Shown here: one piece after another, positions 7,831 through 31,309 of the stretch
Numbering within the stretch: the first letter of the stretch is position 1
How the letters are laid out: each line of letters starts with the position of its first letter
NCBI RefSeq assembly: GCF_000203915.1
Contig: NC_008390.1
Coordinates: 1,860,001-1,924,000 of the forward strand
DNA: 64,000 nucleotides
Direction of reading: 5' to 3'
Origin: Burkholderia ambifaria AMMD
GTDB lineage: Bacteria > Pseudomonadota > Gammaproteobacteria > Burkholderiales > Burkholderiaceae
Program-made: the position numbers and the translations under genes
The notes under the pieces: generated by a model
Database searches by the model: none
Told to the model about the DNA's origin: nothing
What the model saw: only the letters and a program-made list of their open reading frames with translations

Positions 7831-8157
7831 TCACGCGCCCCGCTCCCATGCGACCACCAGCGCCCGGTTGCGCGACATCAGCACCAGGTGCTCGTCCATC
7901 ACGTACTGGATCTGCTCGAGCCGCTCCGAAGAATCGGCTTCGCAGCGCAGCTGCAGCATGTCGTCGGTGCGCAGCATCCGGCAGACGCCGTACGGGAAAT
8001 CGATGGTCGCGCGATGTTCGTCGAACACGACGGGTACCTTGATCGCGTAGTGCTTGCACAGCTTGAACAGCACGCGGTCGGCCTGCGGCACCGACACCTG
8101 CGCCGTGCTCACGAACGACGCCGGACGCGCATCGGGCATCCCCGGATGCGCCGTCAT
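7831..8157 (-). CDS. DUF2218-family small protein in the siderophore operon
   Basis: 108 residues. The core matches what I recall of the DUF2218 family: LFKLCKHYAIKVPV, then IDFPYGVCRML, then an acidic middle, then a DEHL near the C-terminus. The family is often found beside siderophore genes but has no established biochemical role. The start ATG at 8157 overlaps the entB stop (ATGA at 8154-8157), so it is translated with entB and sits just before the NRPS. It is small and soluble with no signal peptide. A role as an assembly or iron-handling accessory is only inference from position. The longer frame upstream is a shadow of entB. Confidence 0.82.
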   Translation of the reverse strand: MTAHPGMPDARPASFVSTAQVSVPQADRVLFKLCKHYAIKVPVVFDEHRATIDFPYGVCRMLRTDDMLQLRCEADSSERLEQIQYVMDEHLVLMSRNRALVVAWERGA

Positions 8158-9029: not shown

Positions 9030-9077
9030 GATGGACAGGATTGGAATGGAGGAATCGACCGGACGTCGCCGCGCCCG

Positions 9078-11875: not shown

Positions 11876-11919
11876 GATATTGCCTCCAGATTGAATGAGC
11901 CGGCGCGCCGGCCATGCCG

Positions 11920-14118: not shown

Positions 14119-14143
14119 GGTGGCGCTTTCGACGTTTCGTAAT

Positions 14144-14162
14144 GTGATTGATTCTCATTTGC
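14144..14162 (-). promoter_or_regulatory. Fur box upstream of the receptor-siderophore operon
   Basis: On the minus strand this reads gcaaatgagaatcaatcac, matching 13 of 19 positions of the Fur consensus GATAATGATAATCATTATC, with the central AATGAGAATCA block intact. It lies 26 bp upstream of the receptor ATG, where Fe-Fur would block the promoter of the whole minus-strand operon. Inference from motif and context only. Confidence 0.75.
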
Positions 14163-14235
14163 ATTATGAAACATGTAATCCACCGAAATCTTTGCGTAAG
14201 CATCGAAGTCGTTTGAGCGCCGTCGCCGGCCGTCG

Positions 14236-15207: not shown

Positions 15208-15304
15208 GTCGTCATACCCCCCGCGCGCAGGCCTCGTGCGCCTGCACAAACTATTTTCGCGTTCAATCAAACATCCGACGCCCATGCCACGGCCCCGGCT
15301 CGGC

Positions 15305-15333
15305 TACAATTAAATGAGAATTATTCTCATTTA
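15305..15333 (+). promoter_or_regulatory. Promoter -10 (TACAAT) and Fur palindrome for the uptake operon
   Basis: Bases 15311-15333 form a perfect inverted repeat with 11-base arms around one central base (arm taaatgagaat), an excellent Fur box. A TACAAT hexamer at 15305-15310 fits a -10 element directly abutting it, so bound Fur would occlude RNA polymerase. No convincing -35 is visible, which fits a need for activator help. The site lies in the divergent gap between the AraC gene and the binding-protein gene and may serve both. Confidence 0.85.
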
Positions 15334-15351
15334 TATCGTATCGGGAGTCAC

Positions 15352-16491
15352 GTGAAAAAGACAAGCGGAATGTGGGCCATGCTGGGCGTATGGCTGTGCG
15401 GGTGGCTCGTGGTGCATACCGCGCGGGCGGACACGACGACCGTCACCGACCTGGCCGGGCGGCAGGTCCGGATTCCCGCGCGCGTCGAGCGCGTGCTGCT
15501 CGGCGAGGGCCGCCTGCTGCCGGCGCTGGCGGTGGTCGACGGCGACGATCCGACGCGCCGCCTCGTTGGCATGATGGGTGACTTCGAGCAACTCGATCCC
15601 GCGAGCTACGCGCAATGGCTCGCGCGCTTCCCGCGCCTGAAGGACGTGCCGCGCATCGGACGCTCGCAGACCGGCAGCTTCAGCGACGAGCGCGCGCTCG
15701 CGCTGCGTCCTCAGGTTGCGATCTTCGGGCTCGGCGGCGGCCACGGCCCCGGCGAGCGCGATCGCGAAACGCTCGCGCGGCTCGAGGCGGCCGGCGTCGC
15801 GATCGTGTTCGTCGACTTCCGGCACGACCCGCTCGTCAACACGCCGCGCAGCATCGCGCTGCTCGGCCAGGTATTCGGCTCGCCGCAGCGCGCGGCGGAA
15901 TTCAACGCGTACTGGCAACAGCAGCTCGACCTCGTCCGCACGCGGCTCGCGACCGCCCACCCGGCCGCGCCGAGCGTGTTCCTCGAAAGCCGCGTCGGCC
16001 TGTCGAGCGACTGCTGCGACACGATGACCGGCATGATGGGCCGCCTCCTCGACGCCGCCGGCGGCAACAACGTCGCGAAAGGCCGCGTGCCCGGCGAGCA
16101 CGGCACGCTGAACCCCGAATACCTGCTGAGCCGCCAGCCCGATTTCTACATCGGCACCGCGATTGGCTCGCTCCAGACGCTGCAAAGCGCGCCGCAACGC
16201 ATCGCGCTCGGCGCCGGCGTGCCGCACGACGCCGCCGTCCGCTCGCTCGACCGGTCGCTGAAGCGGCCGCAGATCACGCGGCTGCGCGCGGTCCGTGAGC
16301 GGCGTGCGTATGCGATCTGGCATCACTTCTACAATTCACCGTTCAACGTCGTCGCCGTGCAGGTGATGGCCAAGTGGCTGCATCCGGCACTGTTCACCGA
16401 TCTCGATCCGCGCACCACGTTCGACACGATGGTGCGACGCTTCCAGCCCGTTCCGCTTCAAGGCGAATACTGGATGCAGGAAGGATCCTGA
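15352..16491 (+). CDS. Periplasmic ferric-siderophore binding protein (FecB/FepB type)
   Basis: 379 residues starting at a GTG preceded by GGGAG. The N-terminus has a basic start and a hydrophobic core (MWAMLGVWLCGWLVV) ending at ARA-D, a signal peptide. The mature part begins TTTVTDLAGRQVRIPARVERV, the usual opening of TroA/BtuF-fold iron-complex binding proteins. It delivers the ferric complex to the permease encoded two genes on. ATG starts further upstream lie within the regulator region and lack homology. First gene of a four-gene plus-strand operon behind the Fur palindrome. Confidence 0.88.
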   Translation: MKKTSGMWAMLGVWLCGWLVVHTARADTTTVTDLAGRQVRIPARVERVLLGEGRLLPALAVVDGDDPTRRLVGMMGDFEQLDPASYAQWLARFPRLKDVPRIGRSQTGSFSDERALALRPQVAIFGLGGGHGPGERDRETLARLEAAGVAIVFVDFRHDPLVNTPRSIALLGQVFGSPQRAAEFNAYWQQQLDLVRTRLATAHPAAPSVFLESRVGLSSDCCDTMTGMMGRLLDAAGGNNVAKGRVPGEHGTLNPEYLLSRQPDFYIGTAIGSLQTLQSAPQRIALGAGVPHDAAVRSLDRSLKRPQITRLRAVRERRAYAIWHHFYNSPFNVVAVQVMAKWLHPALFTDLDPRTTFDTMVRRFQPVPLQGEYWMQEGS

Positions 16492-16492
16492 C

Positions 16493-17434
16493 ATGCGCAT
16501 GCCCGCCTCCTCCATGCGCCGCGCCCTCCTCGTTGCCGGATTGGCCGGCCCGCTCGGCGGCCGGCTCGCGCCCGCCTGTGCCGCCGATGCACCTGCGTGG
16601 CCCGGCCTCGACGCCGCGTCCCCGGTCTTCGTGCCGGACAGCCGCCAGTTCGACGTGACGATCGCCGGCCGCACGCGGCGCCTGTTCGTCGCGTTGCCGG
16701 CCGAGCGTTCCGGCGCGGCGCCCCATCCCGTGCTCACCGTGCTCGACGGCAATGCGCTGTTCCCGCTCGCGGCGCAGCTCACCCGCAATCGCCGCGCACG
16801 GCCGGACGGCACGCGCGACGCCGAGGCCGTCGTGATCGGCATCGGCTATCCGGTCGACGGGCCCTACGACATGGCCGCGCGCGCCGACGACTACACGCTC
16901 GCGCCGTTGCCGAACGGCCGCGGCGTCGTCGCGGACCGCTTTCTCGACTTCATCGAGCACGACCTGCAGCCGTGGCTCGCCCGCCAGTTGCCGGTCGATC
17001 CCGAGCGGCAGACGCTGTTCGGTCACTCGTACGGCGGCCTGCTGACGCTGTACGCGATGCTCACGCGCGCGCACCTGTTTCGGCGCTACGTGGCCGCAAG
17101 CCCGTCGATCTGGTGGGGCGAGCGCGCGCTGCTGCCCTATGCCGACCGGTTCGCCGCGCAAACCGCCCCGCTCGCATGGCCGCTGCGCGTCCTCGTGACC
17201 GCAGGCAGCCTCGAGGAAGGCGCACCGAACCCCGACGCCGAACGGATGCGCCGCCAGCAGGCGCGCAAGCAGGTCAGTTCCGCCCGCGACTTCATCGCGC
17301 GCGTGGGCGGCCGCCCCGGGCTCGACGCCGCGTTCCAGCTGATCGACGGCGAGGATCACGGCGGCGTCGTGCTGCCGAGTCTCGCGCTTGCGTCACGCGT
17401 GGTGTTCGAGCCCGCGTCCGGAGCGCTCGCATGA
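16493..17434 (+). CDS. Exported alpha/beta hydrolase, probable siderophore esterase (IroE/Fes-like family)
   Basis: 313 residues. An N-terminal signal (MRRALLVAGLAGPLGG after a basic start; the twin Arg suggests possible Tat export) ends near PACAADA. The hydrolase core has the nucleophile elbow GHSYGG (Ser179) and a C-terminal DGEDHGG with the likely catalytic His. The family includes IroE/BesA-type esterases that open ferric catecholate siderophores. It begins one base after the binding-protein stop and overlaps the permease start by ATGA. If the siderophore is an amide, as I infer for a lysine product, an esterase here is puzzling; it may process a different xenosiderophore or a salicyl/seryl ester. 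Confidence 0.82.
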   Translation: MRMPASSMRRALLVAGLAGPLGGRLAPACAADAPAWPGLDAASPVFVPDSRQFDVTIAGRTRRLFVALPAERSGAAPHPVLTVLDGNALFPLAAQLTRNRRARPDGTRDAEAVVIGIGYPVDGPYDMAARADDYTLAPLPNGRGVVADRFLDFIEHDLQPWLARQLPVDPERQTLFGHSYGGLLTLYAMLTRAHLFRRYVAASPSIWWGERALLPYADRFAAQTAPLAWPLRVLVTAGSLEEGAPNPDAERMRRQQARKQVSSARDFIARVGGRPGLDAAFQLIDGEDHGGVVLPSLALASRVVFEPASGALA

Positions 17435-18495
17435 GCACGACGACCCCCGTTTCGCCTTCGTCGCTGCGACTTCGCTATCGCGCAGTCGCCGCGCGGCGTG
17501 TCGGTGCGCTGGCCGCGCTCGCATGCGTGCTCGTCGCGCTGCTCGTCGTCGACGTCTCGACCGGCCCATCGCCGTTTCCGCTCGCCGATGTGGTCGGCGG
17601 CCTGTTCCGGCCCGACGGGCTGCCGCTCGAACAGCGCGTGATCCTGTGGGACGTGCGGCTGCCCTATGCGCTGATGGCCGTGCTCGTCGGCGCGTCGCTC
17701 GGGTTCGCCGGCGCCGAAATGCAGACCGTGCTGAACAACCCGCTCGCGAGTCCGTTCACGCTCGGCATGTCGGCCGCCGCGAGCGTGGGCGCGTCGCTCG
17801 TCGTGATTTCCGGCTGGCACCTCGTGCTGTGGAACGAGAACGTCGCGCTGTCGCTCGGCGCGTTCGCGTGCGCGTGCGTCGCGACGCTGCTGATCGTCTG
17901 GCTCGCGTGGCGCCACGGCGCGACGACCGAAACCGTCGTGCTGTTCGGCATCGGCCTGATGTTCAGCTTCGAGGCCCTGCAGTGGCTGCTGCAGTTCATC
18001 GCCGACGCAAATGCGTTGCAGCAGATCGTGTTCTGGAGCATGGGCAGCCTGGCGCGCTCGACGTGGGGCAAGATCGCGCTGTTGACCTGCGTGTTCACCA
18101 CCTGCACGCTGTGGGCGAGCGTCGACGTCGCGTCGTTGACGGCGCTGCGCGCCGGCGACGAGCAAGCGCGCAGCATGGGTATCTCGGTCGAGCGGCTGCG
18201 GCTCGTCGCGCTCGCGCGCATCAGCCTGCTGTCCGCGACGGCGCTGTCGTTCGTCGGCACGATCGGTTTCGTCGGCCTCGTCGGGCCGCACGTCGCGCGG
18301 CTGCTGGTCGGCGACGAGCATCGCTACTACCTGCCGGGCGCGGCGCTCGCCGGCGCGATCATGCTGGCCAGCGCGTCCGTGCTCAGCAAGACGCTGATCC
18401 CCGGCGTGACGCTGCCGATCGGCATCATCACCGCGCTGGTCGGCGTGCCGTTGTTCATGCTGCTCGTCAGCCGGCGCGGGAGGCTCCATGGCTGA
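17431..18495 (+). CDS. FecCD-type iron-siderophore ABC transporter permease
   Basis: 354 residues with about nine to ten hydrophobic helices and family motifs: VRLPYALMAVLVGASLGFAG, then NPLASPFTLGMS, and near the C-terminus GTIGFVGLVGPHVAR. It is the inner-membrane channel of the uptake system. It overlaps the esterase stop by four bases and the ATPase start by eight, so the three are translationally coupled. Only one permease gene is present, so it must act as a homodimer, as BtuC does. Confidence 0.93.
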   Translation: MSTTTPVSPSSLRLRYRAVAARRVGALAALACVLVALLVVDVSTGPSPFPLADVVGGLFRPDGLPLEQRVILWDVRLPYALMAVLVGASLGFAGAEMQTVLNNPLASPFTLGMSAAASVGASLVVISGWHLVLWNENVALSLGAFACACVATLLIVWLAWRHGATTETVVLFGIGLMFSFEALQWLLQFIADANALQQIVFWSMGSLARSTWGKIALLTCVFTTCTLWASVDVASLTALRAGDEQARSMGISVERLRLVALARISLLSATALSFVGTIGFVGLVGPHVARLLVGDEHRYYLPGAALAGAIMLASASVLSKTLIPGVTLPIGIITALVGVPLFMLLVSRRGRLHG

Positions 18496-19297
18496 GCCGA
18501 TGCTGCATCTCGACGCGCTGTGCGTCCGCTACGGCGCCCGGGTCGTGCTCGACGGGCTGTCGCTCGCGCCGGTCGAGCCGGGCACGACGGTCGGGCTGCT
18601 CGGGCCGAACGGCGTCGGCAAGTCGACGCTGCTGCGCGCACTGGCACGGCTTGCGTCCCCGACCGGTCGCGCGACATTCGGCAGCTTCGACCTGCTGGAC
18701 GGGTCGCGCCGCGAACACACGCGGCAGGTCGGCTATCTGCCGCAGACCTTGCCGCAACCGTCGTCGCTACTCGTGTACGAAGCCGTGCGCAGCGCGTTGC
18801 GCGCCACCTGCGGCGGCCTGTCCGACGCGACGCGCGACCGGCGCTTGCAACAGGTGTTCACGCGGCTGCGGCTGCACCCGCTGGCAATGTCGCCACTCGA
18901 CCGGTTGTCGGGTGGCCAGCGGCAGATGGTCGGGCTCGCGCAGGTGCTCGTGCGCGACACGCCGCTGCTGCTGCTCGACGAACCGACCAGCGCGCTCGAC
19001 CTGCGCTGGCAATTGCTCGCCCTTGAGGCGGTGGGCGAGGCGGCCCGCCAGCGTGGCGCAATCGTGCTGGTCGCGATGCACGACCTGAATCTCGCCTCGC
19101 GATTCTGCGACCGGCTCGTGCTGCTGAGCGCCGACGGACTCGTCGCGGACGGCGCGCCGGCCGACGTGCTGACGCCGCCGAACCTGCGGCGCGCGTACCG
19201 CGTCGATGCAAGGGTCGAACGCACGGCGTCGGGCGATTATGTCGCGCTGGCAGAGCGGGCAATTCCGGACGAGCCGGCGCTTGCTTGCGACAATTGA
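18488..19297 (+). CDS. Iron-siderophore ABC transporter ATP-binding protein (FepC/FecE type)
   Basis: 269 residues. Walker A GPNGVGKST near residue 40, the ABC signature LSGGQRQM, and Walker B LLLLDEPTSALDL, followed by an H-loop VAMHDLNLASRFCD typical of the FecE/BtuD branch. It powers import through the permease it overlaps. Last gene of the uptake operon; the 125 bp that follow hold no obvious terminator before the deacetylase gene. Confidence 0.94.
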   Translation: MAEPMLHLDALCVRYGARVVLDGLSLAPVEPGTTVGLLGPNGVGKSTLLRALARLASPTGRATFGSFDLLDGSRREHTRQVGYLPQTLPQPSSLLVYEAVRSALRATCGGLSDATRDRRLQQVFTRLRLHPLAMSPLDRLSGGQRQMVGLAQVLVRDTPLLLLDEPTSALDLRWQLLALEAVGEAARQRGAIVLVAMHDLNLASRFCDRLVLLSADGLVADGAPADVLTPPNLRRAYRVDARVERTASGDYVALAERAIPDEPALACDN

Positions 19298-19422: not shown

Positions 19423-19998
19423 ATGTCCATTCACCTCAGTTTCGACGACGGCCCCGGCCCGTCGACGCCGTCGTTGCTCGACGTCCTGCGCGACGCATCG
19501 TGCAAGGCGACCTTCTTCCTGCTCGGCACGAACCTGGCGGGCGCGCTCGACGTCGCGGCGAGAATGGCGCACGAAGGCCACCGGCTCGGCAATCACACCC
19601 GTTCGCACGCGAGACCGGGCGCGCTGGCGGACGACGTGCTGATCGACGAGATCGAGGCAACCGACGCGCTGATTCGCGAGGCCTGCCGCCGCGCCGGCGT
19701 TCCTGCGCCGGACGCGATCCCGCTGCGCCTTCCGTACGGGTTGATGCCGCGGGACAATCGCGCAGCCGTGCTCGCGCGCCTGCAACGCGAACACACCGGC
19801 TGGACCGCGATACTGGATGACTGGCAGCGGCCGGCGCCGTCACCGCAGGCGCTATTCGACGCAATGTGCGCGCATGTCGACGCGAGCGCGGCGCGGCATC
19901 GCGACGTGCTGTTCTGCATGCACGACGGATCGCGGCACGGCGAAGCGCGGCCCAACACGGTCGAAGCCGTGCGCCTGTTCCTGAATCGGCAGCGCTGA
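19423..19998 (+). CDS. Polysaccharide deacetylase (NodB-homology) protein, short
   Basis: 191 residues. It begins MSIHLSFDDGPGPSTPSLLDVL, the first NodB motif with the metal-ligand and catalytic Asp pair, followed by GHRLGNHTRSHARP, which supplies the two His ligands. This family removes acetyl groups from N-acetylated sugars. It is close to the minimum length for a functional NodB domain and has no signal peptide, so it would act in the cytoplasm. It stands between the siderophore locus and the unusual cluster on the other side, and converges with the phosphotransferase at 20011. Whether it belongs to either is unclear. Confidence 0.85.
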   Translation: MSIHLSFDDGPGPSTPSLLDVLRDASCKATFFLLGTNLAGALDVAARMAHEGHRLGNHTRSHARPGALADDVLIDEIEATDALIREACRRAGVPAPDAIPLRLPYGLMPRDNRAAVLARLQREHTGWTAILDDWQRPAPSPQALFDAMCAHVDASAARHRDVLFCMHDGSRHGEARPNTVEAVRLFLNRQR

Positions 19999-20010
19999 CA
20001 CGACTACCGG

Positions 20011-21003
20011 CTAGCTTTCGGGCGCCGCCTCGTCCAGCAACTGGCGCCAGCCGCCGAGAAATCCGATGCCCGGCCCCGGCATCCACAGGCCGCGCTGCGC
20101 GGCTTCGAGATGGATCAGCGTCTGGTCCGCGCAGAACAGCACCCTCAGCGCATCCCGCCTCACGCGCATCCAGTCCGGTGCAGCGTCAGGCCGCGTCGCT
20201 GCGTAGGCTTGCAGGCCGGCTTCCCATCGCCGTGCATCGAATACGAAGCGATCGTCCCTGGCCGCATCGCGCGACAGCGCGAACAACGCAAAGGCCGCCT
20301 CGAGCCATTGCGCGCCCTGCCCCACATCGTCGAAATCCAGCACGCCGTTCACCGCATTGCCCACATACAGCAGGTTACCCGCGTGATAGTCGCCGTGCAG
20401 CCAGTGCACCGGCCCCGTCAGCCAGCGTGCGGCGGCGTCGAGATGCGCGCGGATTCGCCGGATCACCGTGGCGTAGTCACGGCCCAGATCGCCCGCCAAC
20501 GACGGCATCGCCCGTGCGGCGACGCGCGCATGACGCGCCGACAGCCACGCCAGCGGTGCCGATTCGCTTACGGGTATCGACGCCAGTGCCGCATGCAGAT
20601 GCGCGAGCGCACGCATCGCATCGACCGCGCCGGCCTGCGCATCGTCGGGCAGGCCGGGACGTCCGTCGATATGCTCGAACAGGTGCAGCCAGCTTCCATC
20701 GGCGGCCTGCACACCGGTTTGCGCATCCACGGTCGGCCGCAGCCGCGGCAGCGCGGGCAATGTCGGCGCCGTGCGCAAACCGCCGAGACGCCCGAGTATC
20801 GACGCCTCGCGACGCACCTGCCCGACCGGCTTGCCGGACCACGACACGCGCAGCACCGTGCGCCCCGCGGCGCACTCGACGAGGTACGTTTTGTTAGTAT
20901 GGCCCGACGCCAGCGCCTGCAGGCGCGCCGGCGCGATGTTCCAGTACCGGTGAAGCCACGGTTCCAGCGTTTTCACGTCATTCCTACTCGTTGCATTGAC
21001 CAT
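20011..21003 (-). CDS. Aminoglycoside phosphotransferase (APH)-family kinase, copy 1
   Basis: 330 residues. The kinase-like catalytic loop is HGDYHAGN at 203-210 and the metal-binding DFDD at 223-226, as in APH, homoserine kinase II and choline kinase families. An N-terminal lobe with GHTNKTYLV (33-42) resembles the nucleotide-binding loop. The start ATG (21003-21001) shares the tetranucleotide CATG with the start of the divergent gene at 21002, so no intergenic promoter exists unless one of the true starts is internal. The second copy at 24805 has the same length and the loop at the same residue numbers. Substrate unknown; a hydroxyl of a sugar or amino alcohol is typical. Confidence 0.85.
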   Translation of the reverse strand: MVNATSRNDVKTLEPWLHRYWNIAPARLQALASGHTNKTYLVECAAGRTVLRVSWSGKPVGQVRREASILGRLGGLRTAPTLPALPRLRPTVDAQTGVQAADGSWLHLFEHIDGRPGLPDDAQAGAVDAMRALAHLHAALASIPVSESAPLAWLSARHARVAARAMPSLAGDLGRDYATVIRRIRAHLDAAARWLTGPVHWLHGDYHAGNLLYVGNAVNGVLDFDDVGQGAQWLEAAFALFALSRDAARDDRFVFDARRWEAGLQAYAATRPDAAPDWMRVRRDALRVLFCADQTLIHLEAAQRGLWMPGPGIGFLGGWRQLLDEAAPES

Positions 21004-21691
21004 GTCAGAGCGTCCTTCGGCCCGCATGCGGGACATCAACATCGAATGGCTGACGCGCGCCGCCGAATTCGACCATCTGTTCCAGACGCGCTGGCTCGGC
21101 GAGCGCTTCTTCCATCTGCCCGGCGACATGCTCGCCCTGCAGGAACTGATCTGGCGCGCGCGTCCCGACTGCATCGTGCAGACCGGCATCGCGGCGGGCG
21201 GCGGCGTCGTATTCTCCGCGTCGATGCTGGAATTGACGGGTGGCCACGGCCGTGTGGTCGCGATCGAACCGCGCCTGCGCGACGAGGTCAGGCAGCGCCT
21301 GCAATCGCACCGGCTCGCCCATCGCATGGTGCTGATCGAAGGCGAATCGTGCGCAACCGACACGCTCGCATCGGTACGCGCGCGGATCGGCGACGGCGCG
21401 CGCGTGATGGCGATCCTCGATCTCACGCATACGCACGCGCACGTGCTGCGCGAACTCGCCTGCTATGCGCCGCTCGTGACGCCCGGCAGCTACGCGATCG
21501 TGATGGATACCATCATGGAGTATCTGCCCGAGTCGATGTTCGACGGCAAGCCGTACGGCAGAGGCAACAACCCGGCCACGGCCGTGCATGCGTTTCTCGC
21601 CGGCGACGACCGGTTCGAAGTCGACCACGACATCGAGGACCGCGTGCTCATGACGCTGTCGCCAGGCGGCTTCCTGAAGCGAGTGCGCTGA
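21002..21691 (+). CDS. CmcI-like (cephalosporin hydroxylase family) enzyme, probable SAM-dependent O-methyltransferase
   Basis: 229 residues. The Rossmann-type site reads IVQTGIAAGGGVVFSASML (58-76) with AIEP at 87-90 and a metal-type ILDLTHTHAHV, followed by YAIVMDT and, near the C-terminus, YGRGNNPATAVHAFL. This is the pattern of the CmcI / rhamnosyl O-methyltransferase family, in which several members methylate sugars or polyketides despite the hydroxylase name. It starts in the CATG shared with the APH gene on the other strand; an internal ATG (MRDINIEW, 21026) is an alternative. Its last 44 bases overlap the 3' end of the glycosyltransferase gene on the opposite strand. Confidence 0.83.
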   Translation: MSERPSARMRDINIEWLTRAAEFDHLFQTRWLGERFFHLPGDMLALQELIWRARPDCIVQTGIAAGGGVVFSASMLELTGGHGRVVAIEPRLRDEVRQRLQSHRLAHRMVLIEGESCATDTLASVRARIGDGARVMAILDLTHTHAHVLRELACYAPLVTPGSYAIVMDTIMEYLPESMFDGKPYGRGNNPATAVHAFLAGDDRFEVDHDIEDRVLMTLSPGGFLKRVR

Positions 21692-22853
21692 TCAGGCGGG
21701 CGGCCTGCGCCGAACCGTCGCGCGCGTAGCTCGCGCGGATCCGCGCCGCCTGCTCGCGCAACGATCCGGGACGCAACAGGCGTTCGAGCGCGTCGGCAAT
21801 CTCCGCGACGCCGGCCTGCTGCAGATCGAGCACGCACCCCGCGCCGGCCCGCTCGACGAAGTGCGCCGAATGGAACTGGTCGTTGCAGAACGGCGACAGC
21901 AGCATCGGCACGCCGCACGCGAGCGACTCCATCACCGAATTCGCGCCGCCATGGCTGACGAACGCGTGCGTGCGCCGCAGCAGCGCCAGCTGCGGCGCGT
22001 AACGCACCGCGACGACGCGCTCGTCATCGACCGGCAGCAAATCCGAATCGGCCAGTTCGCCCACCGACAGCACCAGTTGCGCCGACGTCGTGCGCGTCGC
22101 GTCGATGACTTTCGCGAACAGCTCCGGGTGGTAGTAAAGCTGGCTGCCGAGCGACATGTAGACGAGCGGGCGATCCGCGTCGAGGCGTTCCCACGGGAAC
22201 GCCGTCTCGTCGCCGCGCGGGCCCGAAGGCATCGCCGGGCCGACCAGTTCGACACCGGGCGGCGGCGTACCGACCAGCGCGTCGGTCGTGAACGCGAGCG
22301 TCAGATGCGGCGACAGGATGTCGCAACCGCGAAAACGCGCGTCGAGACCGTAGCGCGCGAACAGGCGCGTGCGTTCCGGCTCGAGCCATCGCACCGTACG
22401 GAGCAGTTCCGAATCGAGCGCGTCGGGTAGCACCGGATTCAGCGAATTGGACATCGAGACCCACGGCAGCCCTTCCAGCTCGGCAGCGATCGCCGCGGCG
22501 TAGAGCAGCGGATCGATCACGACCACGTCGGGCTGCCATTCGCGCAGCACGGCGCGGATGCCGTCCACCTGAGCGGGCGCGAGGTCGATCAGCAGCGTGC
22601 GGATCCAGTGCCTCAGCCAGTCGGCGTCGCGAATGTTCGCGGCGAAGCTCGCGCCGCGCGACAGGTCGTGGCGTTCAGGCGTCTCGCGCGGCCCGACGAA
22701 TGCAAAGCCGCCGGCGCCGTCGAGCTGCGCGCTGATGTCGGCCGGCGCGTAGAACGCGACGTCGCAGCCGGCCGCGCGCAGATGCTGGGCCGGGCCGATG
22801 CACGGATTGACGTGGCCCTTCTCGGGCACCACGCAGAACAGGATGCGTTTCAT
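21648..22853 (-). CDS. MGT-type UDP-dependent glycosyltransferase (GT1)
   Basis: 401 residues, starting MKRILFCVVPEKGHVNPC, the typical opening of the macrolide-glycosyltransferase (GT-B) family, where GHVNP is the conserved acceptor-side motif. In the C-terminal half VYMSLGSQ and HGGANSVMESLACGVP mark the nucleotide-sugar site. It would attach a sugar to a small-molecule acceptor in the cytoplasm. The start at 22853 is 8 bases after the stop of the ligase gene; an in-frame ATG at 22883 would overlap that gene and lacks homology. Last gene of the five-gene operon. Confidence 0.9.
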   Translation of the reverse strand: MKRILFCVVPEKGHVNPCIGPAQHLRAAGCDVAFYAPADISAQLDGAGGFAFVGPRETPERHDLSRGASFAANIRDADWLRHWIRTLLIDLAPAQVDGIRAVLREWQPDVVVIDPLLYAAAIAAELEGLPWVSMSNSLNPVLPDALDSELLRTVRWLEPERTRLFARYGLDARFRGCDILSPHLTLAFTTDALVGTPPPGVELVGPAMPSGPRGDETAFPWERLDADRPLVYMSLGSQLYYHPELFAKVIDATRTTSAQLVLSVGELADSDLLPVDDERVVAVRYAPQLALLRRTHAFVSHGGANSVMESLACGVPMLLSPFCNDQFHSAHFVERAGAGCVLDLQQAGVAEIADALERLLRPGSLREQAARIRASYARDGSAQAARLISALASGSRLATAS

Positions 22854-22860
22854 GGGCGAC

Positions 22861-23928
22861 TCAGGTTGAGCGATGCGCGGCATCGAGATGAAGGCGATCG
22901 AGATGATCGAGGATCAGCGTCAGCGTGACCCACAGCACGCGCTCGGTATCCGCCTGCAACGTGGGCGCGGCCAGACCGAGCGTGTCGGCCAGTGCACGCG
23001 TGCGGTCGCGATCGAGCAGCGGCGCGAGATCCATCGCCGGTGCGAGCCGCCCGCGCTTCGGGCCGTGCACGAGACGGTCCGGCAGGTTCAGGCGCGCACC
23101 GAGATCGCGCAGGCACTGCTTGTTCGGGTCGGGTGCGATGCTCGTCAGATGCGCGACGACGTCGGCATCGACGAACGGCGGATGCAGATCGACCGACGCC
23201 TCGTCGAACAACGCATGGCACAGCGGCAGATAGTTGGCCGACCGGTCGCGGCGCAAGACCTGATCCGCGCCGTCGCCGGTGATCGCCACCTCGACGCCGT
23301 CCGCGGCGATCGCCTCGGCCAGCAGCAGCTTCGCGACCGGGTGCAGGTTGAACATCGGCTCCTCGACCGCATGGGTCGTTCTCGGCAGCGCCGCGACGAA
23401 GTCGGCCTCGTTCGCGCGCACGATCTTCACGTTCGCCTGCATCTGCGCGGCGAGTTCGAGCGCCGCGTCGAGTTCGCAGTAGTCGGGCATGTCGGTCGCG
23501 AGGATATAGGACGTCACGTGCCGCTGGGCGCCGAGTTCGCGCAGCAACGCGAGCAGCAGCGCCGAATCGAGCCCGCCGCTCAGCGCCAGCGCGACGCGCT
23601 TGCCGCTGTCGAGCGCGCGTTGCAGCGATGCGCGCAGCACGGTGTCCAGATCGGCATGCCGGGGCCGCTCGGGCGCCGGCCGCACCGCCAGGCCGTGCGG
23701 CGCCCGGATCAGTGCATGACCGGGCGGCACCGCGAGCACGTCGCGCAGCACCGTGCGGCCGATCAGGCGCTGGCCGCTCAGGTAGCCCGCGATGGCGGCC
23801 GGGTCCGGCGCGCCGGCCGCTTGCCCCGACGCCTGCAGGACGGCGCGGATGCCGGACGCCGCCACGCCGCTGCGCGGATGGTAGTGCAGACGATCGAAAC
23901 CGAACGGGTCGCGCGTGCCGACGATCAT
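22861..23928 (-). CDS. Asparagine-synthetase-like ATP-dependent amide ligase lacking the glutaminase site
   Basis: 355 residues. Residues 1-35 (GTRDPFGFDRLHYHPRSG) match only the tail of the class II glutamine amidotransferase domain; the N-terminal catalytic Cys2 is absent. The synthetase domain is complete: SGGLDS PP-loop at 117-122 and EVAITGDGADQV further on. Without glutaminase it should use free ammonia or another amine, as beta-lactam synthetase and lasso-peptide cyclases do for internal amines. It begins inside the stop of the radical SAM gene (23925-23928). A partner carboxylate substrate cannot be named. Confidence 0.85.
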   Translation of the reverse strand: MIVGTRDPFGFDRLHYHPRSGVAASGIRAVLQASGQAAGAPDPAAIAGYLSGQRLIGRTVLRDVLAVPPGHALIRAPHGLAVRPAPERPRHADLDTVLRASLQRALDSGKRVALALSGGLDSALLLALLRELGAQRHVTSYILATDMPDYCELDAALELAAQMQANVKIVRANEADFVAALPRTTHAVEEPMFNLHPVAKLLLAEAIAADGVEVAITGDGADQVLRRDRSANYLPLCHALFDEASVDLHPPFVDADVVAHLTSIAPDPNKQCLRDLGARLNLPDRLVHGPKRGRLAPAMDLAPLLDRDRTRALADTLGLAAPTLQADTERVLWVTLTLILDHLDRLHLDAAHRST

Positions 23929-24803
23929 GGATAACGAGCCTTCAAGGTGTCCACTTCAATGCGTTTCAGGATGCGATGCGGCGCGACCGGCGCGCTGCCG
24001 CCGCGGCAATGCAGGCATGCTTCGAGCGGTGCCTCGCGCTGCAGATAGGCGAGCATCGCATCGAGCATGCCGGCGTCATCGCGCAGCGGCAGGCCGTCGG
24101 CCTGGAAATCCTTCTCGCCCTTGTAGAGCGTATGGAAATGCGCCGGACGCGTACACGTGTAGAACATGCCGTCGCGAATCATATGGCAGCGCTCGCGGAT
24201 CCAGCAATCGTGATAGAGACGCCGCGCGTCGTCGCGATCCGTGCCGGGCTGTGCACGATTCATCGTCGTGAACACGTCCTGCACCTTCCAGTTCAGGCGC
24301 ACGTCGAAACGCGCGGCCTGGTGCTCGACATGCGCGATCAGGTCGGGCGAAAGCGCCGGCTTCGGATAGCGGGAGATGGTGAGCGCATCCACCGCTTGCC
24401 AGAACGCGTCCGGCATCTCGCCGAGCTTCAGGCCGTTCGTCGTGACGGAGATTTCGGGCGCGATGCCCGTGCCGCGCACGCGTTCGACGAGTTCGACGAG
24501 CGCCGGGTGCAACAGCGGTTCGCCGCCGACCAGCTTGAAAATGCGCGGGCTCAGCACCTTCGCGGCCTTGCGCAGATCGGACTCTATCGATTCGGGGCTC
24601 GCATACCACTCGGGCAGCAGCGGCGACAGCGAGCAGCATTCCGCGCAGGTCAGGTTGCAGTGGTCGACGATATGCGCTTCCAGCGAGCGCGTCCGGACGC
24701 GCCCATCGGCGACGCGGTAGTCGCGATCCAGCGGCGGCGGGAAGACATGCTGTCGCTCGCCGGAGCGCGGCGGATTCGGGATGGTGTTCGGATTCGCACT
24801 CAC
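23925..24803 (-). CDS. Radical SAM enzyme with SPASM-like C-terminal cysteines
   Basis: 292 residues. The [4Fe-4S] motif is CNLTCAEC with Cys49, Cys53 and Cys56, followed by an extra Cys57. GGEPL at 93-97 binds SAM. The C-terminal part has Cys200, Cys206, Cys217, Cys263 and Cys266, with CLHCRGG at 263-269, resembling the auxiliary-cluster (SPASM/twitch) region. Members modify peptides, sugars or cyclitols by radical chemistry. No precursor-peptide gene is evident nearby, so a small-molecule substrate seems more likely. It starts two bases after the stop of the APH gene and overlaps the ligase gene by ATGA. Confidence 0.9.
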   Translation of the reverse strand: MSANPNTIPNPPRSGERQHVFPPPLDRDYRVADGRVRTRSLEAHIVDHCNLTCAECCSLSPLLPEWYASPESIESDLRKAAKVLSPRIFKLVGGEPLLHPALVELVERVRGTGIAPEISVTTNGLKLGEMPDAFWQAVDALTISRYPKPALSPDLIAHVEHQAARFDVRLNWKVQDVFTTMNRAQPGTDRDDARRLYHDCWIRERCHMIRDGMFYTCTRPAHFHTLYKGEKDFQADGLPLRDDAGMLDAMLAYLQREAPLEACLHCRGGSAPVAPHRILKRIEVDTLKARYP

Positions 24804-24804
24804 T

Positions 24805-25797
24805 TCAGCTTCCTGCTTCCACGCAACGGGAAAAGAAATCGATCAGACGCTCGCGCGCGTCCACCATCGCGGACGCCATGGTCACCGCGCCGCTCAGGTG
24901 CGACGCGAAGCGCGACGGATCGTCGAGCCAGCCTTGCACGACCCACAGCTTGAGCGCGTGCTGCAGGCACGCGGCATCGACGGCCCACGCGAGGTGCGCG
25001 GGATTCACCGGCCGGACCCGGCCATACGCGCGCACGAAGGCTGCCGCCAGATGCGGCGCCTCCAGCGGCAAATGATTCAGGCATCGCACCAGTTCGTATT
25101 CGCGCGGCGCGCCGATCGATGCCTCCCAGTCGAGAATCAGCGGCGGCAGCGTGCCCGTGAACAGATAGTTGAACTGGTTGTAGTCGTTGTGAATCGGATG
25201 CTGCGGATCGTCGGCGGGAAACGCGTCGAGACTGCCCGGATAGTAGCGCTCGAGCATGCGCAGCGCGAGATCGACATAGCGACGCAGGTCCGCGCCGCCG
25301 TCGTTCGCGTGCGCACGATCCCGTGCGTCGAGCAGGCTGCGGCGCACCGCGTCCGCATCGATCGCGGTCAGCCGCGCGCGGATCGTGTCGAGCGACGGCA
25401 GATGCAGCCGGTCGAGGCTCAGGTGCAGCGCGGCCAGACTCGCGCCGAGCGCATTCCACTCGGCTGGCGAAAATGTATCGTAGGTTCTGAACTGCCCGGC
25501 TTCCCAGCGCGTGAGCATCGCGTGCGAGTCCTGCCCCGTCCACAGCGATGCGCCGGCTGTCGTGCGTTTCAGCGTCTGGACACGAACGCGGGCATCGCCG
25601 TGCATTTCCAGATGCGCAAGGACGGCGGCCTCCCTGGCCGCGCGCGCATGGTGTTCGAGCGCATAGAGCTTGACTGCCACACCGCCGCTGTCAGCCGGCA
25701 GATACCACACGCGTTCGCTGACCTGGCGCGGTGCGTCGCTTCGGCCGAGCGCGTAGGCGTCGCGAATCTCGTCAAAGGGGATCGCAAGCCGGTCCAT
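24805..25797 (-). CDS. Aminoglycoside phosphotransferase (APH)-family kinase, copy 2
   Basis: 330 residues. The catalytic loop is HNDYNQFN at 203-210 and the metal site ILDWE at 221-225; the second residue of the loop is Asn, not the more usual Gly. The N-lobe stretch VAVKLYALEHHARAAREAAVL carries the ATP Lys and helix Glu. Its length and the position of the loop equal those of copy 1, suggesting related roles, but the two share little sequence outside the motifs. It abuts the FkbM stop with no gap and ends one base before the radical SAM start. Substrate unknown. Confidence 0.87.
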   Translation of the reverse strand: MDRLAIPFDEIRDAYALGRSDAPRQVSERVWYLPADSGGVAVKLYALEHHARAAREAAVLAHLEMHGDARVRVQTLKRTTAGASLWTGQDSHAMLTRWEAGQFRTYDTFSPAEWNALGASLAALHLSLDRLHLPSLDTIRARLTAIDADAVRRSLLDARDRAHANDGGADLRRYVDLALRMLERYYPGSLDAFPADDPQHPIHNDYNQFNYLFTGTLPPLILDWEASIGAPREYELVRCLNHLPLEAPHLAAAFVRAYGRVRPVNPAHLAWAVDAACLQHALKLWVVQGWLDDPSRFASHLSGAVTMASAMVDARERLIDFFSRCVEAGS

Positions 25798-26547
25798 TCA
25801 GATGTGCTCCGCCGGCCCGTGTCGATACGGATGACCGGTCAGGAACGTGTTGTGTCCGACGTAGCGGAGCTTGTACATCGCCGGCCGGAACAGCACCGAT
25901 GGATCGTTGTTCGCGATGCCGAGCAGCGGGTACAGGTCCTGCCGTACGAAGAACGCGTTGTTGCCCATGTCGTCGCAGCAGACGAGTTCATAGCCCTTCC
26001 GCCTGCCGAGATGAACGAGCGATTCGAGGCTTGCACCGTAGTAGGTCGAGCCATCCCATTCGTGGTCCGGATTGAAGCACATGACCCAGCGTTCGGGCGG
26101 CGTGTAGTACGGGTTGTATTCGATCACGACGATGCGCGGCTGAAACGCTTGCAGGCCGCACCACACCCAGTAATCGTTGCCGTCGATGTCGATCGACAGC
26201 AGGTCGAAGTCGGCCGGCGTGTTCGCATCGGCGAGCAGTTGATCGACCGTATCGGGTTGGACGCGGTCCTGATACAGACGGACGCGCTCCGCGCCCGCGT
26301 AGTGGGCGGCAAGCTTGCCGAACCGATATGCGCTGCCTTCCACCAGCACGCCGGCCCAATCCTGTTCGTGCAGCAGCCGCGCGGTGTTGCTGTTGCGAAG
26401 GCCGTCGCTCGCGCCGATGTCGACGCAGAAGCGGTTGGCGGGCGCGATCCGCTCCATCAGGCGCGCCAGGATGCCCTCCTCGGTGCCCTGCGCGTAAAGG
26501 CTTTGCGCAAGGCCGGACAGGTCGAGCGGGAGGGGATGGTCCTGCAT
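25798..26547 (-). CDS. FkbM-family SAM-dependent methyltransferase
   Basis: 249 residues. The SAM motif is CVDIGASDG at 41-49, followed by an acidic VLVEGS strand, LLSIDIDGNDYWVW and IVVIEYNPYY, the usual order in FkbM O-methyltransferases, which act on polyketides, sugars or polysaccharide termini. It is the first gene of the five-gene operon. About 125 bp separate its ATG from the stranded ybiT terminator, room for a promoter, but I see no clear -35/-10 pair. A plain AGGGG-poor leader precedes the ATG. Confidence 0.88.
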   Translation of the reverse strand: MQDHPLPLDLSGLAQSLYAQGTEEGILARLMERIAPANRFCVDIGASDGLRNSNTARLLHEQDWAGVLVEGSAYRFGKLAAHYAGAERVRLYQDRVQPDTVDQLLADANTPADFDLLSIDIDGNDYWVWCGLQAFQPRIVVIEYNPYYTPPERWVMCFNPDHEWDGSTYYGASLESLVHLGRRKGYELVCCDDMGNNAFFVRQDLYPLLGIANNDPSVLFRPAMYKLRYVGHNTFLTGHPYRHGPAEHI

Positions 26548-26672: not shown

Positions 26673-26706
26673 AAAAAACCCGCATCGACACTGCTGTCGA
26701 TGCGGG
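26673..26706 (-). terminator. Original ybiT Rho-independent terminator, now separated from the gene
   Basis: A perfect 12-bp stem (arm cccgcatcgaca, 26679-26690 with 26695-26706) and a four-base loop, followed on the minus strand by six T (A-run at 26673-26678). It sits about 84 bp beyond the left copy of the ybiT 3' end, exactly where a terminator for the uninterrupted gene would be. Confidence 0.88.
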
Positions 26707-26789
26707 CTTGATGCGCTTGTGACGGTTCGCTCCGGGCGTTCTGGTCGGTGCCGCACCGGAACTCATGCGCGGAGGAAACCTCCGGGCAC

Positions 26790-26915
26790 TTACTCCTGCC
26801 CCTGACTTGTCAGGAATTCCTCGTAATTGCCACCGAAGTCGTACAGCGTACCGTCCGTGCGCACTTCGATGATCCGGTTCGCCAGCCCGCTCACGAACTC
26901 GCGGTCGTGCGACAC
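26790..26915 (-). repeat. Left direct repeat (attL-like), remnant of the ybiT 3' end
   Basis: 126 bases that match 29717-29842 at all but four positions (26807, 26817, 26901, 26904), with an 83-base identical core at 26818-26900. It still encodes the C-terminal ~42 codons of YbiT and its TAA, but has no upstream gene. It marks the left boundary of the island. Confidence 0.93.
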
Positions 26916-27052: not shown

Positions 27053-27562
27053 TCATTCAGGGCTGCGCTCTTTCTGGAAGTACTCCCGGTATGTATCAAG
27101 CACGGCCCAGAAAGCATCACGGAGCCACACGGGCTTATCATCAACATCGAGGATGAGGTATTCCGTCCCTAGGGAGTCTCCAACGCGCGACACCCCAGTG
27201 AAGAAACCCCGCTTGATTCTTTTCCCGTATGCCGGCCTCGTTTTACCATCGAGCGTATGATGCTTAGCATTGTTTGCCGCGCTGATGACTGCTCGAAACG
27301 CCTCGAGCCCGTGGATTTTGAGAACCAGCGCTTCCTCCGCCGAGCGCCCAGCCTCATCCTTGGCGGCAAGTTTTTCTCTGACATTTTCCTTTGTCCCGTT
27401 CTTGACCAGCCAATCAAGTAAGTGGAACAGGGTCACGGAAACAAGAAACGCGTTCACGGGCGTTTGCGCTGCGTAGAACGCCGTGTACTGCTCACATGCG
27501 AGGCCGAATAAATCACTTGCAGAAAGATCAAAGAAGCCCTCCGCCGGAAAACTCTGCTCCAT
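27053..27562 (-). CDS. Island hypothetical protein, 169 aa
   Basis: 169 residues starting MEQSFPAEGFFDLSASD. A predicted soluble alpha/beta protein with aromatic-rich helices and several Lys/Arg residues; the middle has AANNAKHHTLDGKTRPAYGKR. No signal peptide or known motif is recognised. The codon use is less GC-biased than the flanking chromosome, consistent with acquisition. The start overlaps the trailing frame of the decayed recombinase region. Function unknown. Confidence 0.6.
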   Translation of the reverse strand: MEQSFPAEGFFDLSASDLFGLACEQYTAFYAAQTPVNAFLVSVTLFHLLDWLVKNGTKENVREKLAAKDEAGRSAEEALVLKIHGLEAFRAVISAANNAKHHTLDGKTRPAYGKRIKRGFFTGVSRVGDSLGTEYLILDVDDKPVWLRDAFWAVLDTYREYFQKERSPE

Positions 27563-27638
27563 AGTCGCTCATCTCATGACGATTACCGGTAAATCGCGAT
27601 GATAGGCCGAAGATGGGCAAAAAGAAAAGGCGGGAATC

Positions 27639-27911
27639 CTTCACCCCCAGACCTGCCAGCGCCTCTTCCGTAGCACTCACGTCCATCGCGTTGCCCAGTC
27701 GGTCCTGCTTGGTAACGTCCACGACATCGCCTAACTCCATACGGTCCACCAAGCGTGCGAAGCCGAGACGCTCGGAGGCAGTGACGGAACTGCTAATTAA
27801 TTCGTCCACATGCGCCATTTTTCGATAGCGAACCCGTTCAATCTCTGGACGTTGGTTCTCGGTGGATGGTCATGGGGGGAGATACGGCAGTAAACGTACA
27901 CCTGTACGCAA
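27639..27911 (-). pseudogene. Decayed serine recombinase (resolvase/invertase N-terminal domain)
   Basis: On the minus strand, fragments in different frames recall a resolvase: VYVYCRIS near 27880-27908 (the usual start with the catalytic region YxRxS), STENQRPEIERV near 27845, then ASERLGFARLVDRMELGDVV and TKQDRLGNAMDV down to 27639. The canonical DRLGRN has lost its Arg, at least one frameshift separates the pieces, the in-frame copy begins with a stop, and the DNA-binding C-terminus is gone. It is probably a relic of the island's former recombinase. The frame continues to 27528 as unrelated sequence. Confidence 0.6.
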
Positions 27912-28006
27912 TAAGCGTCCGAGTCTTATGCCATGCCCGAACAGCTTACAAACGAACTTTCGTACGCCCCTGACTGCCGATATTCGAAAGGGAACGGTTT
28001 TGGAAA

Positions 28007-28495
28007 CTATTGCCCACTTCGGATTTGCTCGACATCAAGTCGACAACGGAGTTCGATTAATGTCAGCGTTAATTCGAGCGACTTTAGCTGCTTCTTGAAC
28101 GCCAGCACCCCCAGAATGATTGCCGCCATCCCGGTAGCAGCTTGCGCCCCGTAGTCCGACCACGATAATGGGCGTTGGACTTGAATCAAGGTCAGCGCAC
28201 TTAGTATTAAAGCCACTCCCGAAAGCAGTAGATTCCATACAGCGTCAAGTTGCAGGTTATTTCGCTCGGCCAAGACGAAGGGAATTCGATGGCGGAAACG
28301 CACAAGTTCGTCAACCTGCTTGGTTCGCGCCTCTTGCACGCGTACGGAGCGATTTGCCCAAATCCCCGTGAGCTTACCAGAGCACGAGTCAAGAACTCGA
28401 ACAAGATAGGTCCCCGCCACTCCGACGATGAGGCCGGCAGCAACCACGCTGAACCACCACTCACCAGATGATAAAGACTGAAGAATTTTATCCAT
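28007..28495 (-). CDS. Island membrane protein, 162 aa
   Basis: 162 residues starting MDKILQSLSSGEWWFSVV. Three hydrophobic segments (about 12-34, 86-105 and 114-132) are separated by a long charged loop rich in Arg and Glu, then a short charged C-terminal helix. It looks like a small inner-membrane protein. No family recognised. It lies within the ybiT island and has base use like the other island genes. Confidence 0.6.
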   Translation of the reverse strand: MDKILQSLSSGEWWFSVVAAGLIVGVAGTYLVRVLDSCSGKLTGIWANRSVRVQEARTKQVDELVRFRHRIPFVLAERNNLQLDAVWNLLLSGVALILSALTLIQVQRPLSWSDYGAQAATGMAAIILGVLAFKKQLKSLELTLTLIELRCRLDVEQIRSGQ

Positions 28496-28594
28496 TGCTA
28501 TCGAACGCGTTAACCAATGTGAACGGTGCGGTCAAATGCCCCCAGCGGGCCCATTTGAGGCCCGTGAGAGCATCTCGTGCTGGCGATATTAGCC

Positions 28595-29137
28595 CTAGCC
28601 GAATGCCACGAGCGCAGCCACCAGAAGCGCGACGATGGCGCTAGGCTTGGCTATTTCTATCAAGTAACTCTTCCAGACAAACCCTGAACCGAAAACAGAC
28701 GAGCAAACGCGAAGCGGCACTCTTCCGTAAAAGATATATCTATTGCCGTTCCGCTCGACCATATACCACGCACACGGGATGAGCGGGATGAACAAAAAAC
28801 AGAACGATGACAGCGATAATCCGATGACCCGACCGTCTATCATAACTATTGGAACAAACCCCGCCATACCCATTCCGCAACCATTGATGCGGTAGAGATT
28901 AAACGGCCCTCTGGTCTTGACCATTCCCCCAGTCAACTCATGAGTGGTCGCCGCGTCGATTAGATGCACGGTTCCAGGCTGAGCGGGAGGAAGTTGGCGA
29001 CGCTGAAACACATGCTTGATTGATGTCGCAGCCTTCCTAAACAGCTCTTTGCGCGCGACCGGAAACCCACAACTCGGACATGCCTTCGCGCTTGTAGATA
29101 CGTCGTGACCGCATTCAGGACAGTTGATGAGCGCCAT
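28595..29137 (-). CDS. Zinc-ribbon membrane protein of the island, 180 aa
   Basis: 180 residues. The N-terminus MALINCPECGHDVSTSAKACPSCG carries two CxxC knuckles spaced as in zinc-ribbon (double-ribbon) proteins. A helix-rich middle follows, then hydrophobic segments near residues 110-128 and at the C-terminus (IAKPSAIVALLVAALVAFG). The layout, a cytoplasmic zinc ribbon on a membrane tail, occurs in several mobile-element and stress proteins of unknown role. It lies 8 bp after the 103-aa gene, probably in one unit with it. Confidence 0.68.
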   Translation of the reverse strand: MALINCPECGHDVSTSAKACPSCGFPVARKELFRKAATSIKHVFQRRQLPPAQPGTVHLIDAATTHELTGGMVKTRGPFNLYRINGCGMGMAGFVPIVMIDGRVIGLSLSSFCFLFIPLIPCAWYMVERNGNRYIFYGRVPLRVCSSVFGSGFVWKSYLIEIAKPSAIVALLVAALVAFG

Positions 29138-29716: not shown

Positions 29717-29842
29717 TTACTCCTGCCCCTGACTCGTCAGGAACTCCTCGTAATTGCCACCGAAGTCGTACAGCGTACCGTCCGTGCGCACTTCGATGAT
29801 CCGGTTCGCCAGCCCGCTCACGAACTCACGATCGTGCGACAC
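29717..29842 (-). repeat. Right direct repeat (attR-like) forming the 3' end of ybiT
   Basis: The 126-base partner of 26790-26915. It is in frame with ybiT and includes its TAA stop at 29717-29719, so the gene is not broken by the insertion. Confidence 0.93.
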
Positions 29843-31309
29843 GAAGATCAGCGTGCCTTCGAACTGCTCGAGCGCGATCTGCAGCGACTCGATCGACTCC
29901 ATGTCCATGTGGTTGGTCGGCTCGTCCATCAGCAGCACGTTGTGGCGGCCGAGCATCAGCTTGCCCCAGATCATGCGGCCCTTCTCGCCGCCCGACAGCA
30001 CCTTCACCGACTTCTTGATGTCGTCCGACGAAAACAGCAGGCGGCCCAGCGTGCCGCGCACCATCGTCTCGTCATCGCCATCCTTGCGGTACTGGTCGAT
30101 CCAGTCCATCAGCGTGATGTCGTTCGGGAACTCCTCGTACGTATCCTGCGGCATGTAGCCGACATTCGCGTTCTCGGACCACTTCACCGTGCCGTGATCG
30201 AGCGGCAGCGCGCCGAGCAGCGAACGCAGCAGCGTCGTCTTCCCCGCGCCGTTCTCGCCGATGATCGCAATGCGCTCGCCCGGCTGCACCGACAGGTTGA
30301 AGTTCTGGAAGATCGTGCGCTCGTACTTCTTCGTGATGTCTTCGGCAACCACCGCGACGTTGTGCAGCTTCTTCTCGAACTCGAAGCGGATGAACGGGTT
30401 CTGACGCGACGACGGCTTGAATTCCTCGATCTTGATCTTGTCGATCTGCTTCGCCCGGCTCGTTGCCTGGCGAGCCTTCGACTTGTTCGCCGAGAAGCGG
30501 CGCACGAAGTCCTGCAGCTCGGCCACGCGTTCCTTCGCCCGCGTGTTCGCCGCGGCCTGGCGCTCGCGCGCCTGTGCCGATGCGAGCATGTAGTCGTCGT
30601 AGTTGCCCGGCCAGACCTTCAGCGTGCCGAAGTCCATGTCGGCCATGTGCGTGCACACCGAGTTCAGGAAGTGACGATCGTGCGAGATGATGATCATCGT
30701 CGAGTTGTACTCGTTGAGCGTTTGCTCGAGCCAACGGATCGAGTTGATGTCGAGGTTGTTGGTCGGTTCGTCGAGCAGCAGCACGTCCGGCTTCGAGAAC
30801 AGCGCCTGCGCGAGCAGCACGCGCAGCTTCCAGCCCGGCGCGACGTCGGCCATCGTGCCGGTGTGGAACTTCTCCTCGATGCCGATGCCGAGCAGCAGCG
30901 CGCCCGCGCGCGCCTCGGCGTCGTAGCCGCCGTATTCGGCGAACTTGCCTTCGAGCTCGGCCGCGTGCATGTAGTCGTCGTCGGTGGCTTCCGGGTTCGC
31001 GTAGATCGCGTCGCGCTCGGTCATCGCGGCCCACATCTCGGTGTGACCCATCATCACGACGTCGAGCACGCGCACGTCTTCATACGCGAACTGGTCCTGG
31101 CGCAGCTTGCCCAGACGCACGTTCGGCTCCAGCGCGACGTTGCCGCCGCTCGGCTCGAGGTCGCCGCCGAGGATCTTCATGAAGGTCGACTTGCCACAGC
31201 CGTTCGCGCCGATCAGACCATAGCGGTTGCCCTCGCCGAATTTGACCGAGATATTCTCGAACAAGGGCTTCGGCCCGAATTGCATCGTGATGTTGGCAGT
31301 AGAAAGCAC
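29717..31309 (-). CDS. ybiT: ABC-F family ribosome-associated ATPase YbiT
   Basis: 530 residues, the same length as E. coli YbiT. Two ABC domains: Walker [10 protein letters not shown] and GENGAGKTT, Walker [12 protein letters not shown] and [11 protein letters not shown], separated by a charged coiled linker with [21 protein letters not shown], a hallmark of this branch. The start [20 protein letters not shown] aligns with YbiT from its first residues. ABC-F proteins bind the ribosomal E site and modulate translation. It has no membrane domain. Its last ~42 codons come from the right repeat of the island. Confidence 0.95.

Follow-up and report, generated by a model that had tools for sequence, protein, structure and literature searches.

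The window analyzed here is a stretch of 64,000 nucleotides of Burkholderia ambifaria AMMD (NC_008390.1, positions 1,860,001 to 1,924,000), part of contig 2 in a four-contig genome of 7.53 Mb. Between 19423 and 26547 it carries a block of eight genes for small-molecule tailoring enzymes. This eight-gene pathway is real and conserved, and it is a variant of sugar-type natural-product clusters. We think it probable, if only just, that the eight genes make up a minimal but complete pathway to a specialized metabolite, namely a soluble glycoside that contains an aminosugar. Seven of them had been grouped in a first-pass annotation of the sequence; that block is real, but its count was one short, as a deacetylase gene of the CE4 family (19423-19998, plus strand) outside the span then given belongs to it. 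The genes, and a hairpin upstream of them, are as follows (aa, amino acids).

25798-26547, minus: 249-aa methyltransferase-like protein of the FkbM type, encoded at the head of the main operon (PF05050, 27.7 bits; cut-off, 22.7)
24805-25797, minus: APH1, APH-fold small-molecule kinase, 330 aa (kinase motifs and predicted fold)
23925-24803, minus: 292-aa radical SAM protein of the twitch class, HygY/SpeY type (PF04055), predicted from Cys206 to be a sugar epimerase
22861-23928, minus: Asn-synthetase-like (AsnB-like) amide ligase without glutaminase domain, 355 aa (PF00733, 92.1 bits)
21648-22853, minus: GT1-type UDP-sugar glycosyltransferase, 401 aa (PF00201, UDPGT, 70.9 bits)
21026-21691, plus: CmcI/rhamnosyl-O-methyltransferase-like protein, 221 aa (PF04989, RMNT_CmcI, 208.2 bits; cut-off, 23.2)
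20011-21003, minus: APH2, APH-family kinase, about 330 aa (PF01636, 75.6 bits, scored on a longer frame; cut-off, 23.2)
19423-19998, plus: NodB-type (CE4) polysaccharide deacetylase, 191 aa (PF01522, 78.9 bits)
26676-26709, minus: terminator-like hairpin upstream of the operon (consensus scan)

Conservation and layout of the block

A search of named genomes with the AsnB-like protein yielded 23 loci, in which that gene is present by construction. All eight genes, in the same order and strand pattern, lie within 7.1 to 7.4 kb in 22 of them; the 23rd (L030) starts at a contig end inside the AsnB-like gene, and the five genes from there on are kept. By record title the loci belong to Burkholderia, Paraburkholderia, Trinickia, and Bordetella. 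Matches of about 90% identity among them, with coordinates that agree with same-genus hits (for example L009, Burkholderia arboris, and G372), point to Burkholderia as the genus of the window. A genus-wide comparison of 65 genomes used a separate query for each of four genes (AsnB-like, FkbM, CmcI-like, and deacetylase): 31 genomes had all four and the other 34 had none of them, with the matches in one of the 31 (G418) split over two contigs. Conserved order and joint presence or absence go well beyond chance. Since the genomes are related and are not independent events, the pattern shows joint inheritance or loss and not 31 independent events. Recurrence as a linked block, which had been set beforehand as the test of the first-pass annotation, is what the loci display, and the opposite outcome, homologues occurring only singly and unlinked, is contradicted by the shared set of genomes.

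In the wider family the AsnB-like gene occurs in 24 of 299 genomes and in 4 of 25 genera. The flanks, where examined, differ between genera: P450-reductase, TctC, IclR, and symporter genes in Bordetella ansorpii, and an alpha/beta-hydrolase and a major facilitator superfamily gene in Paraburkholderia bannensis, with others elsewhere. A full-length glutamine-type asparagine synthase gene adjoins the block in Trinickia soli (L025, 14667-16439). No further block was found in thin samples of the class (AsnB at E of 1e-40, 1 of 369, the own genome; radical SAM profile at E of 1e-30, 2 of 369), the order (2 matches in 349), and the phylum (E of 1e-50, 1 of 349, again the own genome). Plasmids gave no DNA match and no AsnB match, one radical SAM match, and three FkbM matches of 34 to 38% identity; viral contigs gave 9 weak radical SAM relatives.

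The five minus-strand genes from 26547 to 21648 had been described as joined by gaps of 0, 1, -4, and 7 bp, which is exact with the glycosyltransferase start at 22853, and the two genes placed at the operon end, CmcI-like and APH2, are both there. As also claimed, no gene for a nonribosomal peptide synthetase (NRPS), polyketide synthase (PKS), or precursor peptide lies inside the block, which behaves as one unit of tailoring enzymes. Its two plus-strand genes are interleaved with six minus-strand genes, so the transcript of each strand may run antisense through the genes of the other, a layout that resembles noncontiguous operons. In the window the glycosyltransferase and CmcI-like genes converge and share 44 bp at their 3' ends (21648-21691), the APH2 and CmcI-like genes start back to back 22 bp apart (21003-21026), and the APH2 and deacetylase genes end 12 bp apart (19998-20011). 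The convergent overlap is 44 bp in seven of eight relatives and 47 bp in the eighth. APH2 was listed with an open frame of 471 aa, the beginning of which lies antisense to the CmcI-like gene; the preferred reading is therefore 20011-21003, with 330 aa as in the gene call. No promoter was found by scan at the start of the operon, and neither the promoter scan nor the hairpin scan of the whole region exceeded shuffled sequence. The hairpin at 26676-26709 is mostly preserved when the window is aligned with seven relatives, and is probably that of the preceding ABC-F gene, which we take to be ettA-like, or of its 3' remnant.

Enzymes of the block and the proposed pathway

The radical SAM protein, being of the HygY/SpeY type, points to aminosugar chemistry. 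Its family was supported by a family scan (PF04055), and the CxxxCxxC motif is present as CNLTCAEC at residue 49. It is closest to SpeY, by a fold match and by 33% identity over 259 residues; SpeY belongs to the spectinomycin pathway, and its structures (7wzv, 7wzx, and 7x0b) bear the name "Twitch Radical SAM Dehydrogenase." Four further cysteines, C200, C217, C263, and C266, align with C175, C194, C240, and C243 of a HygY-like protein that lies in a Streptomyces region with APH(7'')-Ia, and are taken as auxiliary-cluster ligands. The assignment to the carbohydrate-acting HygY/SpeY twitch type is firm. Of the earlier label "radical SAM/SPASM," the first half stands and the second gives way to the twitch type by the cysteine pattern: SPASM proteins have a seven-cysteine C-terminal region with two auxiliary clusters, and in the block protein the stretch beyond the radical SAM motif region has five (200, 206, 217, 263, and 266). 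Cys206 aligns with Cys183 of the HygY-like protein, presumably residue 183 in HygY numbering, and with a serine in SpeY; its motif occurs in 119 of the best 120 of 551 homologues, the exception being a 202-aa sequence. By this one cysteine the block enzyme is predicted to be an epimerase, whereas SpeY is a dehydrogenase.

The ligase has the PP-loop synthetase domain of asparagine synthetase B and related amide ligases, with SGGLDS at 117, but lacks the glutaminase domain and N-terminal Cys of asparagine synthetase B: it begins MIVGTRDPFGF, and TIGR01536 aligns only from model position 137, at 91 of 267 bits. A glutamine-hydrolyzing asparagine synthase was rejected, as the part with the Cys nucleophile is missing, and for the same reason the joining of an amine is a likelier reaction for this enzyme than the formation of a primary amide. 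The glycosyltransferase has GHVNP at 13, HGGANS at 301, and DQ at 325. It had been labeled MGT (macrolide glycosyltransferase), a label without support, and macrolide glycosylation was rejected, since the NCBIfam scores fall under both MGT cut-offs (132.7 bits against 260, and 88.4 against 700). The CmcI-like protein exceeds the PF04989 cut-off, matches solved CmcI weakly (E of 0.00026), and scores 64.3 of 400 bits with NF045824 (rhamnosyl O-methyltransferase); by these scores it would be a member of the superfamily, not the rhamnosyl O-methyltransferase equivalog.

Pfam scans back the families FkbM, radical SAM, Asn synthase, UDPGT/GT1, APH2, and CmcI; the APH1 label comes from motifs and a predicted fold. 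No Pfam or NCBIfam model matched APH1, whose sequence search of the PDB gave matches at chance level only; its kinase motifs (Brenner motif) were found and an APH fold was predicted for it. APH2, which was aligned in a set of 9, has HGDYHAGN at 203 and DFD at 223, and found nothing in the PDB at E of 1e-6; the search with the FkbM protein was empty at E of 0.1. The deacetylase was recognized as CE4 by FDD at 7, HTRSH at 58, RLPY at 102, and LFCMHD at 163. It shares CE4-like motifs with NodB and scores 81.6 bits with the NodB model, under the cut-off of 240; unlike NodB systems, the block has no NodC or NodA, and GT1 and radical SAM enzymes are encoded together with its deacetylase. Across the block the active-site motifs looked for are present, bar one CE4 pattern.

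In the pathway that we propose, the GT1 enzyme would transfer a hexose, perhaps N-acetylglucosamine, from its UDP-sugar to a small acceptor, and the deacetylase would remove the N-acetyl group to leave a free amine. On the bound sugar, the radical SAM enzyme would abstract a hydrogen at a carbinol carbon and, with help from Cys206, return one to the opposite face, so that the center is inverted; HygY inverts at C2'. The AsnB-like ligase would activate a carboxylate with ATP and join it to an amine, the FkbM and CmcI-like proteins would add methyl groups, and the two APH-fold kinases would phosphorylate hydroxyls for activation or self-protection. The gene set is consistent with a soluble glycoside that contains an aminosugar, carries an amide, methyl groups, and phosphate, and has one of its sugar centers inverted. 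We infer this product class by reasoning from the enzymes. The "glycosylated, methylated, amide-bearing" metabolite of the first-pass annotation is still a fair prediction, though a primary amide is less likely, "macrolide" is unsupported, and aminosugar chemistry is indicated. A literature search (titles and starts of abstracts) yielded no account of this eight-gene cluster.

The predicted chemistry of the block looks like that of aminoglycoside antibiotics. A region of Streptomyces sp. SAT1 plasmid NZ_CP016083, which we take to be a hygromycin B-type cluster, has three kinds of gene in common with the block: for a related radical SAM protein of the twitch type (37%), for a glycosyltransferase, and for a kinase of the APH type. 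At tblastn E of 1e-4, however, the radical SAM protein is the only one of the eight block proteins to match there, with no FkbM, CmcI-like, AsnB-like, or CE4 match, and aminotransferase, dehydrogenase, and ABC-transporter genes are found there but not in the block. Aminosugar natural-product chemistry is known mainly from actinomycetes. If our reading is right, this is a compact proteobacterial aminosugar natural-product pathway, carried by 31 of the 65 genomes sampled in the genus. Lacking a core gene for an NRPS, a PKS, or a cyclitol, it may escape rule-based cluster finders. For the radical SAM enzyme the prediction is sharp: a single cysteine would make it an epimerase and not a dehydrogenase.

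Distant relatives and other readings

More distant homologues were collected by protein searches at E of 0.001 or better (551 radical SAM, 181 AsnB-like, and 5908 FkbM), one of which scored only 7998 candidates sharing most words. Among the best 120 per query, contigs were compared by size (118, 120, and 120 values), and equal size, which suggests but does not prove the same contig, was found 28 times for radical SAM and AsnB, 21 times for radical SAM and FkbM, 23 times for AsnB and FkbM, and 12 times for all three. Source names in these sets include Luteibacter for all three proteins, Rhodanobacteraceae for radical SAM and AsnB, Deltaproteobacteria for radical SAM and FkbM, and Paraliomyxa for radical SAM. 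One distant FkbM homologue, P0298, has an AadA_C domain (aminoglycoside adenylyltransferase C-terminal) in front (E of 6.5e-25), and its contig (9945) is equal in size to that of one radical SAM and one AsnB homologue. This fusion counts in favor of the proposed aminosugar pathway. We hold it possible, though rather doubtful, that the block represents an aminoglycoside-like Gram-negative product class without an aminocyclitol, an eight-gene, two-strand pathway to a radical-epimerized, amidated, methylated, and phosphorylated aminosugar glycoside, with an FkbM/radical SAM core beyond Burkholderiales. That last part draws on the homologues named Luteibacter and Deltaproteobacteria; whole blocks were not seen there.

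Several observations weigh against the aminosugar glycoside pathway. Domain families say little on substrates. The cysteine is also present in radical SAM relatives at two distant loci (L058 and L059, in genomes G034 and G813), where 20 and 17 kb hold no other block gene at tblastn E of 1e-4, and Cys206 may be general to the radical SAM family. The AadA_C-FkbM fusion is a single sequence without the nucleotidyltransferase half. The APH1 model is only moderate, with a predicted local distance difference test score (pLDDT) below 50 in the catalytic stretch, and the CE4 pattern D..W was not found in the deacetylase, which has DDW instead. The block has no aminocyclitol or sugar-nucleotide gene, exporter, or regulator. 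Neither kind of cyclitol synthase looked for (2-deoxy-scyllo-inosose synthase type or inositol-1-phosphate synthase) is in it, and the own genome has one dehydroquinate synthase place (PF01761), presumably aroB, and no inositol-1-phosphate synthase (PF01658). A classical aminoglycoside, whether of the 2-deoxystreptamine or the inositol kind, is therefore unlikely and was set aside. A self-made aminocyclitol acceptor is unlikely as well; a scavenged cyclitol is possible.

Since the block has no exporter or regulator, an intracellular product is possible, and the glycosyltransferase, deacetylase, and amide ligase families that it contains are those of mycothiol and bacillithiol logic. Its product could on that ground be an intracellular solute or cofactor and not an exported antibiotic or signal. 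We consider this unlikely: the distribution is patchy (31 of 65), and the known schemes do not extend to a radical SAM enzyme, a pair of kinases, and a pair of methyltransferase-like proteins. Decoration of a cell-surface glycan (O-antigen, capsule, or Nod-factor-like oligosaccharide) earns equally little credence. FkbM, CmcI-like, NodB-like, and AsnB-like proteins do occur in surface-glycan clusters, and two distant radical SAM relatives have family-2 glycosyltransferases as neighbors, but the block has no flippase, polymerase, or NodC-type glycosyltransferase; its own glycosyltransferase is GT1, and its radical SAM protein is closest to SpeY. None of 13 flanking genes scanned at 7 related loci is a typical O-antigen gene, a count to be read with the caveat that most flanking genes were outside the scan and that the full-length asparagine synthase gene at L025 is itself a flanking gene.

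APH kinases and an MGT-like glycosyltransferase might also make up a drug-inactivation island, which is very improbable given a glycosyltransferase far under the resistance-model cut-offs and joint presence or absence with biosynthetic-type enzymes. That the block is the tailoring half of the catechol-siderophore-type cluster that adjoins it in the window (about 3.9 to 19.3 kb) is scarcely credible, and the linkage was rejected, as uptake genes lie in the fetched flank of only 7 of the 23 loci (L010, L014, L015, L016, L020, L021, and L024).

Surrounding DNA

The siderophore-type cluster, at 3872-19297, comprises by Pfam an isochorismatase-aryl carrier protein, an AraC regulator, a periplasmic binding protein, an esterase, and an ABC ATPase, and includes a gene of NRPS size, by length only. 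On the other side of the block, a low-GC insert (27053-29137; 53 to 56%) holds short open reading frames, of which three were scanned: two had no Pfam match, and one encodes a zinc ribbon. Just upstream of the block, the 3' end of the ABC-F gene recurs as a copy of 126 bp (26790-26915; 96.8%), which about 2.8 kb of low-GC DNA separates from the intact gene at 29717-31285. ABC-F remnants of 60 to 126 bp occupy the same place in L008, L012, L013, L015, and L017, and the end of the ABC-F gene looks like a genomic-island insertion site.

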